Source: Mesostigma viride (taxonomy: Eukaryota > Streptophyta > Mesostigmatophyceae > Mesostigmatales > Mesostigmataceae). From it: 64,000 nt of DNA. The notes beneath the pieces were generated by a model. The model searched no databases, was not told where the DNA came from, and was given only the letters and a program-made list of their open reading frames with translations. The first letter of the stretch is position 1. Every line of letters starts with the position of its first letter. The stretch is from NCBI GenBank assembly GCA_009746045.1, contig RPFO01000072.1, positions 5,078,087 to 5,142,086 of the forward strand. Reading direction: 5' to 3'. A program made the position numbers and the translations under genes. This document shows, one piece after another, positions 4,902-57,357 of the stretch.

Positions 4902-7900
4902 CCCTGCCATGGATCTATGCAGGGTTTACTGCAGGACCCACGGATGGTTTTGATGGTTGGCCCCCCGGCATGTCCCTGCTCACGTCTTCAGGCGTGAGCC
5001 AGGTGACCGCAGGGTACCCCTTTGAGCTGCGGGGGTTACTTGTCATCGGCGGCGAGGGGGTCACGGACGTGGTCCTGGAGCTCTCGATTGGTGCACAAGG
5101 GGGCAAGCGCGGCTGTGTGGGGTTCCTGCTGTCATCGGTCACCCCCTCACAAGGCTTCTGCGATAAAGCAGGCGGCAGTGACGGATGCTCTGTGTCCTGC
5201 ACCCTGGGGGCAGTGCAGGGGAGCGACCCCGTGTCCCTGGACATGACCCTGGGGGCGCTGGTCGTGGACGCCCAGCTGGAAGTGGAGGCAAGAGTCCTGT
5301 CAGGGAGAGACACCACCCTGGAGCTGCCGGTGCAGGTCGTCGATGCCTTTGGTGTCGAGGCGGATCCCATTCGTGCGCTTGGTAGGTGGCGCGTGGGTTG
5401 CTAATGTCTGCATTCTGTGGCTAATGCTTGCTTCCACGTGCTTGGTAGGTGGCACGTGGGGTGCCAGTAGAGGCTTCAATGGTCGCTGCCATCCATTACT
5501 TGGTGCTGGCATCCATGTGCTTGGAAGGCCATGTGTGGGTTGGCCATGTGGGCTGGCAGTAAAGGCCAGGCCACTCCTGTGGCTGCTTCAAATTATAATG
5601 CTTGCATCCACGCACAGCTTGATCTCCCACATTTTGTAGGCGGGTCGTGGGTGCGGACCTAACAGCGTGTGCGTAATTGCGGTCCGTGGGTCTGGCTGGC
5701 TTGTGCATTACCCATGGTTCTGGAGCTTGGGTCTGGTAGCACTTTTATGTGTAATGCCTTTATAAATAGAACTCTATCAAGAATGTTAGGCGTCCTTGTG
5801 CACATGCCGCATCATTACAGAAACCGCATACTGCTAGCGATGAACGCCATCCCTATTTAATTTCCCCAGCGAGAAGGGACCATGGACTTCCTTTCGGCAC
5901 TGCCCGCTCATTGCCGCTGAACTCTAGCCGTTTGCGCAGACATGGCCCCCCGTATGCCTTGTGGCCCCCGCCCTGCCCATGTCACTGCCTGCAAAATGAG
6001 CCTTGTCAAAGTAACCATGAATTGCTTGGCATGGCAACCACATCTAAACATATTGCCGTCGTGAAAAAGAAGTTTATCCCATCTCTATCTGTCCGCCATT
6101 AATCTGCCCATTCTTCTAAGAACAAAAAAAATTATGATTTCCGCCGATCATCAGTAGGTAATCAAGTCTGTACAGCTGCCTGTACGCCTATGTGCCTAGC
6201 ATGTTGCCTATGTGCCTAGCATGTTGCCTATGTGCCTTGTGTGTTGTCTTGTGTTGTCTATTTGCCTAGCGCGTTGCCTATGTGCCTAGCATGCTGCCTA
6301 GGGGCCTAGCATGCAGCCTATGGGCCTAACGTGTTGCCTATGTGCCTGGAAGGCTGCCTACTATGTGCCTAGTGTGTTGCCTATTCGCCTAGCGTGTTGC
6401 TCTACTCCCTGATCTATACTGTCCTGCTTAGTTTCGACCTGTGTCTACCAATGTGTGTCTACCTATAGCTCTTCCTGCGGTGGTCGTCATGGTCTGGGAA
6501 TCATCATTTGTGCTTATTCAATTATCATGGATGCTACGAGGCTCCGTATCATCCAGTATGCATAGCGTCCAAGTTGCTCTACTTGCTCAAGTCCTCGTCG
6601 GGCCTTGTGATAATTATGTCCTGTTCTTCATCGTCACGTCTACTCTTACCCACAAATAGCCGCCACTTTACTTGTGATATGTCCCCTATATCTCTACCCA
6701 CCTATGCCCTCTTTCATGTCGCTCCCACTCTGCGAGTACCCGCCCATCGCCTCCTTACCTTCACTTGTGCTGTGTCCTCTACGTACGAGGTTCCCTCACA
6801 GATTCTGGGCGGCCAATCCTGGCCCCAGGGCCCGGCGCGGCGAATAACATAAGGCGCATGGCGGGGTACGGCCGAGTCGTCGGCTTCATCAGCACGTCTG
6901 AGATCCTGTACTTGACCGTGATGGGCCCCGGGCTCAGCCACTGCGATCTCGAACTAATTGATGTCATTGACGTCAAGGGGCCCGGGCAGCTTACGAATGT
7001 GATGAGCAGTACAGAGCCGGGGTCGCTGCTGTCATTCGAGGTGAGCAAGGTGATGTCATGTCAGTTGAGGTCAGGGACGGCCTGCAAACAGGTCCTGTGC
7101 TTGCACGTTGCAAAAGGAGAGGGCTGGGCACAGGCATGTGGTGTGTATACTTGGGATGATCACCTGCAAAGTTACTCATAGAGCTGGCTGAAGGCTGAGA
7201 TGCGGCGTGCTTGACTTTGCCTTTCGCCCCAAAGTGGGCGTTGGGCCCAGCGAAGCCCTCTCGAATCGTTTGTCTTGGATGGAGGTGCACAGCTGCGAAT
7301 AGCTGATGGACAAAAAGAATGGCCTCCTTGCCACCTCGAAGTAGTACCTGAACGCTGGGGGGATCGCCAAGGACAACCCCTTGCGGGTGTTCTTGTCTAT
7401 ATATAGATATCAGCGAATTATATCTGCATGATATGAGCAATGGCATCACTGACCCATGGTATATATTTGCTTCTTTCTGTACCGATGCGGAACCCTGTAG
7501 CTAAGAAAAGAGCAAACCCTGCTGTATGTCATTTGGTAATCGGTACAATCGCTGGTAGTTTTCTCAGCGTTCTGTTCTTTGCTGCCATCTCCCATGTCAG
7601 CAAGCAGGTCTTGGCCCTGTCTATACATCCCGTCCCACATGCTGACTAACCATAGTAATCTATATCTCACATGATCAGAACAGGTCTTGCACCCTATCTC
7701 ACTGTCCTGTTCCCTATTTGCCTTTATCTGTTCCTATATCCACCATATATGTGGGAAAACAGCTTCTTGCCGTGCCCGACTCTGCCCTGGTGCTGCAAGT
7801 GGCTGCGGGCGCCTGCAGGGGCGCGAACGGCCAACCCAGCATGGCATCCGAGCCGTTCCCTCTGCTTGTTGGTACGCTAGTGTCGGGTACCGGAATTAGC

Positions 7901-57357: not shown

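Follow-up and report, generated by a model that had tools for sequence, protein, structure and literature searches.

Local direct copies of splice junctions inside introns of three neighbouring genes in Mesostigma viride, with an apparent excess at donors

Do introns carry copies of their own splice junctions, and if so, is the junction itself special, or is it simply the edge of an intron that is rich in duplications? The question is raised by a window of 64,000 nucleotides of Mesostigma viride (the whole stretch of DNA analysed here). An original prediction had pointed out that at about a dozen junctions in three genes the exon end and its splice site, or the acceptor and the first exon bases, recur in the neighbouring intron. 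Such copies are called echoes here.

Gene models were built from open reading frames, GT(GC)/AG sites and protein matches, independently of the echo search and before it. They comprise three neighbouring genes in this one window, with 23 introns and hence 23 donors and 23 acceptors. Gene A gave no family match in a Pfam search, and certain of its modelled acceptors are doubtful. Gene B is DDB2-like: eight of the ten sequences matched in the PDB are DNA damage-binding protein 2, with a best E value of 2.2e-12, and the frame is open through 13/13 joins as far as the stop. One upstream in-frame stop in exon 1 makes the start uncertain, and donor 41639 probably belongs to a GC-AG intron (CAG/GCAAGT), with which the reading frame agrees. 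The protein has what we take to be a plant-type look, with a CCHC knuckle. In gene C, exon 3 alone matches the Ysc84 domain (PF04366) at 2.1e-12, and exons 2-4 joined at 50290/54609 match it at 2.3e-19. Its acceptor at 50118 is uncertain, because the join between exons 1 and 2 is out of frame.

Elsewhere in the window there is a reverse transcriptase fragment at 59072-59470 on the minus strand (PF00078, 1.4e-8), LINE-type by its context. Three similar open reading frames at 32734-33015 (+), 33007-33294 (-) and 57929-58237 (+) look by eye like inverted and dispersed copies of one element. Searches of the window with Rfam (gathering thresholds) and ARAGORN gave no matches.

Echoes that straddle the junction were found at 12/23 donors and 4/23 acceptors, all of them direct copies in the adjoining intron (Table 1). 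All ten donors and four acceptors named in the original prediction coincide with predicted junctions and have such a copy, and donors 46828 and 36558 add two further cases. The copies had been described as containing 15-45 exon bases, which is correct for part of the list and not for the whole, since the exon part ranges from 2 to 57 nt and the echo is mostly intronic at 5381, 24981, 42075, 43230 and 55013. Because the ends of the copies vary in this way, the splice site does not delimit the copied unit. The shift between junction and echo is 36-156 nt in 13/16 cases and 437, 622 and 1607 nt in the remaining three. Of the 16 alignments in the list, one is exact and the other fifteen show 4-31% divergence over the aligned positions. 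Several introns thus hold decoy copies of their own splice sites, because stretches that straddle the border have been copied into the adjoining intron, mostly at the intron start.

Table 1. Gene models and junction-straddling echoes in the window. Matches are identical over aligned positions; shifts are in nt.
Feature	Positions	Strand	Match and shift, or basis
Gene A, multi-exon	4902..28459	+	open frames, coding score, splice sites
Gene A exons	4902-5381, 6802-7040, 9430-9565, 13541-13834, 16201-16424, 17876-17979, 24797-24981, 26598-28459	+	
Gene B, DDB2-like, 14 exons and 13 introns	33991..47233	-	splice model and PDB DDB2 matches
Gene C, Ysc84-domain protein, 4 exons modelled	48812..57357	+	splice model and PF04366
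Donor 5381, echo 5440-5464	5377..5464	+	23/25, shift 63
Donor 13834, echo 13908-13940	13809..13940	+	29/35, shift 99
Donor 24981, echo 25116-25147	24972..25147	+	25/32, shift 144
Donor 46828, echoes 46730-46671, 46619-46593, 46511-46486	46486..46854	-	44/62 for first echo
Donor 45953, echo 45864-45815	45815..45991	-	45/50, shift 127
Donor 44428, echo 44418-44386	44386..44454	-	30/33, shift 36
Donor 43230 within array of ~47 bp x 2.8, echo 43184-43140	43118..43247	-	45/47
Donor 42075, echo 42011-41970	41970..42081	-	35/42, shift 70
Donor 38312, echo 37711-37685	37685..38333	-	24/27
Donor 36558, echo 36498-36463	36463..36578	-	29/36, shift 80
Donor 50290, exact echo 51864-51904	50257..52351	+	41/41
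Donor 55013, echo 55070-55093	55012..55093	+	21/24, shift 58
Acceptor 16201, echo 16078-16136	16078..16257	+	50/60, shift 120
Acceptor 24797, echo 24596-24652 in 79-bp array (24577-24779)	24577..24808	+	45/57
Acceptor 38869, echo 39348-39264	38830..39348	-	60/87, shift 437
Acceptor 38396, echo 38540-38477	38364..38540	-	51/67, shift 110

The count excludes a weak match at donor 9565 (37/54, 1.5 kb off), exon-only matches at acceptors 44513 and 36669, an exon-side match at 54609, and intron-only matches at 6802, 45185, 43299, 41151, 40309 and 40978. The acceptor tests leave out 4902 and 47233, which are the starts of the first modelled exons. Donor 38312 has a second partial copy at 38228-38215, which lacks the splice site. 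The echo of donor 50290, with its shift of 1607 nt, lies within an 88-bp array (51786-52351) made up of seven copies of the exon end and GT.

Other repeats occur in the same introns. In intron 2 of gene C, a 54-bp minisatellite of ~26 copies (50357-51749) separates donor 50290 from the 88-bp array that holds its echo. In gene A, a 76-bp array of 9.9 copies with 97% matches (16469-17224) begins ~45 nt past donor 16424, and an intron of gene B has nearly 1 kb of pentamer arrays with CCAAC, CCCCG and AACCA units (35250-36218).

Could similarity of this kind arise by chance? A query of 30 exon and 2 intron bases from each junction was compared with up to 600 nt of the adjoining intron, using dinucleotide shuffles as the null. 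In this comparison with shuffled introns, which had been proposed together with the original prediction, 14/46 junctions in the window stand above the shuffles at p<0.05 (8/23 donors and 6/23 acceptors), and 11/46 reach p<=0.01. Eleven of the 14 belong to the 16 straddling echoes, while the other three (41639, 44513 and 36669) do not straddle. Five straddling echoes fail this mostly exonic test (5381, 24981, 42075, 50290 and 55013), these being mostly intronic or, for 50290, more than 600 nt away.

Direct queries reach a score of at least 12 in their own intron at 13-16 of 46 junctions, depending on which of four offsets is used. The same score is reached by inverted queries at 0-1 of 46 junctions, in 0.64-0.79% of 2024 comparisons with wrong introns, and in 0/40 comparisons with the intron that flanks the exon at its other end. 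The echoes are direct, local and one-sided. Chance similarity is ruled out by the shuffles, wrong introns and inverted queries, all of which are near zero. The one exact copy (at 51864) is what might be expected of an assembly artefact, and the divergence of the other 15 alignments is unlike that of a misassembled repeat. Artefact or chance is an explanation to which we give almost no credence.

The same comparisons bear on introners, that is, on introns inserted by transposons or reverse splicing and carrying their splice sites with them. Several introns do contain repeated units that bear splice sites. However, an echo is similar to the exon edge beside it and to no other, as the wrong-intron rate indicates, and the copies continue into the exon instead of stopping at the splice site. 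Introners are ruled out in that no unit is common to different introns in the window, and we regard this origin too as extremely improbable.

The presence of exon ends with splice sites inside introns is also reminiscent of the Rogers model, in which an intron is born by tandem duplication of an exon stretch containing AGGT. The original prediction had suggested that introns may be created here in this way. Such an origin predicts that the flanks of donor and acceptor match in register, which is seen in 0/23 introns, with at most 7/15 bases matching per side. Out-of-register matches at p 0.04 in two introns are approximately what is expected from 23 tests. Birth by duplication is ruled out by the in-register test, and we consider it very improbable as a source of the echoes.

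Introns in the window are in any case rich in local duplications. Between 23 and 24% of interior intron 32-mers have a local partner, a figure that falls to 17-19% without microsatellites and to 7-8% when every query position in a TRF array is left out. The junction echoes can therefore be seen in part as this intron background reaching the exon edge. The rate is 1.3-3.3% in exon interiors. In three sampled intergenic stretches (1-4500, 28600-33900 and 61500-64000) it is 6.2%, at a score of at least 12 and with microsatellites excluded, so that local direct duplications are ~3x commoner in introns than there (17-19% vs 6%). Interior intron pairs similar in kind to the junction echoes number 42 in 38.9 kb, again excluding microsatellites. 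When the query is moved from the donor into the exon, matches drop to 2/23 at 10 nt, 2/22 at 20 nt, 0-1 at 30-60 nt and 0 at all steps between 70 and 200 nt, each of which covers 6-17 exons. For acceptors, every step up to 80 nt gives 0-2 matches, and there are none at 90 nt or farther.

Against this background the two sides of the intron behave differently. With a query of 20 exon and 12 intron bases, 12/23 donors have an echo, compared with 4.2 expected from the same introns (P 2.9e-5, ~3x), while acceptors give 4/23 with 4.0 expected. The idea that junctions are special on both sides is therefore ruled out, as acceptors are at the intron background. An echo rate equal to that of random intron segments had been named at the outset as evidence against the whole proposal; this is what acceptors give, and donors lie above it. 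The 12 donors found with this query are not identical to the 12 with straddling echoes, since the search covered 600 nt and the echo of 50290 is farther away than that. Among the straddling echoes themselves, the difference between donors (12/23) and acceptors (4/23) gives a Fisher p of 0.029, and in genes B and C it is 9/16 against 2/16 (p 0.023).

The donor excess holds, with several cautions. The 20+12 query was picked after the distance profile into the exon had been seen, and the first query (30+2) gives only 7 donors vs 4.2 expected (P 0.085). Microsatellite arrays (period up to 12) were dropped from the interior controls. Because the exon half of the query is constrained, donors were granted a 1.5-fold advantage in detection, which leaves P 0.002 for the 20+12 query. 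With genes B and C only, 8/16 donors have an echo vs 3.0 expected (P 0.0015, or 0.024 with the 1.5-fold advantage). Over five settings of this restricted test the direction is constant, and with the advantage two of them give P 0.059 and 0.09. Donor-like decoys inside introns also echo, at 17/51 with the first query and 19/50 with the second, and the donor rate with the first query is equal to the former. When decoys that are copies of their own donor are removed, the figure is 7/32.

We then consider what the copies are like. In 12 echoes (nine donor and three acceptor) the exon part is 85% identical to the exon, and the ten adjoining intron bases are 69% identical; this comparison leaves out 5381, 24981, 55013 and 24797, which have 2-12 exon bases. 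Differences fall at codon positions 1, 2 and 3 in 17, 8 and 22 cases among 107, 109 and 106 compared. In our judgement this pattern fits a copy that drifts while its source exon is constrained, with synonymous change in the exon itself as well.

Strong decoy donors number 61 in the introns, compared with 52 +/- 5 in shuffled introns; an overall excess is not clear. The surroundings of 22/61 resemble the intron's own donor with a score of at least 12, compared with 0.45% for donors of other introns. Five of these, each 15 nt downstream of an array copy, were removed. The remaining 17/61 are copies of the donor of the intron in which they lie; the array at 51786-52351 holds six of them, and eleven are spread over six other introns.

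It might be suggested that selection keeps the echoes because they function in splicing, as alternative sites or as decoys, for example by offering U1 additional places to bind close to the start of the intron. This would be in keeping with the donor excess and with the scores of the echo donors, which equal or exceed that of the real donor in 7/12 cases; the other five are weaker. Against this reading, the frame would run into a stop in 10/12 cases if the echo donor were used, and the insert is a multiple of three in 3/12. GT or AG is retained in 17/18 copies that reach the exon edge, compared with 14.3 expected, but seven of these 18 come from one array, so that no conclusion on selection can be drawn. 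We consider retention by selection unlikely.

The explanation that we prefer, and think probable, is that recurrent local direct duplication lengthens introns, and that copies crossing a junction are tolerated as long as the original site is used. Short-range direct duplication is preferred because it accounts for the direction and locality of the copies, for their varying ends and for the similar pairs found in intron interiors. It may occur by replication slippage or unequal exchange, and some of the duplicated units would be re-amplified into arrays. Some duplications would straddle an exon edge by happenstance. The exon-proximal donor or acceptor would stay in use, and the extra exon end and splice site, now inside the intron, would be spliced out and drift. 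Duplications wholly inside exons would be removed by purifying selection, so that copies persist on the intron side. The original sites are taken as the ones used because the protein frame fits and because the Ysc84 match spans the join 50290/54609.

The donor excess would be most simply explained by first-come splicing. The donor transcribed first may capture the spliceosome, making downstream copies of it harmless, while an upstream copy of an acceptor would be encountered first and be harmful. What the DNA shows is the copies, their direction, locality and one-sidedness and, subject to the cautions above, the excess at donors; from these we infer that the copies arose by duplication, that splicing uses the original sites, and why donors are favoured. 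The original suggestion that local duplication across junctions lengthens introns and supplies potential alternative sites agrees with the direct, local, one-sided echoes, the 17/61 decoys and the 7/12 scores; its extension to the creation of introns does not survive the in-register comparison (0/23).

Not every echo is a clean tandem. At 45953 the aligned stretch is 50 nt of a 127-nt shift, which could be the result of later scrambling of the intron, or of a short segment being copied slightly further on. The ratio of aligned length to shift is 0.04-1.15 at junction echoes, and its medians for interior pairs are 0.61-0.87 (ungapped alignments).

Duplication across junctions is already known. 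That introns can be gained by tandem genomic duplication is accepted (PMC3443670). In a potato RdRp gene an intron was gained via a duplication spanning an intron-exon junction (PMC4974935); as here, a local stretch with splice signals was duplicated, but there a new intron arose, whereas here the extra copy lies in existing introns that lack the signature of birth. In human genes within segmental duplications, internal tandem repeats at exon-intron boundaries alter genes (PMC2812944). Those repeats likewise cross the boundary and can duplicate or activate splice sites, but they concern paralogs of recent origin, in which transcripts attest the new introns, whereas ours are diverged copies seen at the DNA level in three unrelated genes.

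Intron sliding and tandem duplication have been described in Drosophila (PMC2891723), where duplicated splice motifs near exon edges similarly provide raw material for moved sites. The position pairs there are <32 nt apart, which is less than the shifts seen here (36-156 nt in 13/16, and 437-1607 nt in three). Introners (PMC9860276) also place repeated sequence in many introns of one genome, but their sequence is common to those introns, whereas here the repeats are private to each. The original prediction knew of no description of echoes in such numbers, which is too sweeping, as duplications that cross the border of exon and intron have been published (PMC4974935, PMC2812944). Among the papers listed in our literature searches, none describes dense donor-side echoes in existing introns, or such duplication at the present density or with a donor bias.

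A more far-reaching reading, which we offer tentatively and think rather doubtful, is that in this lineage introns gain length chiefly at the 5' end, through repeated donor-crossing duplication. Copies on the donor side would be invisible to selection and those on the acceptor side purged, the process being polarised by co-transcriptional splicing from the first donor. Introns would then hold a fossil series of their own exon ends, and duplication would become a major supplier of decoy 5' splice sites.

If the echoes are found genome-wide, they would constitute a sequence record of intron lengthening, and a way in which cryptic 5' splice sites arise naturally (17/61 of the strong ones here). 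They would also provide a testable rule of polarity, that donor copies are tolerated and acceptor copies are not. For gene prediction they would be a warning, since the donor with the highest score may be a copy and not the true site.
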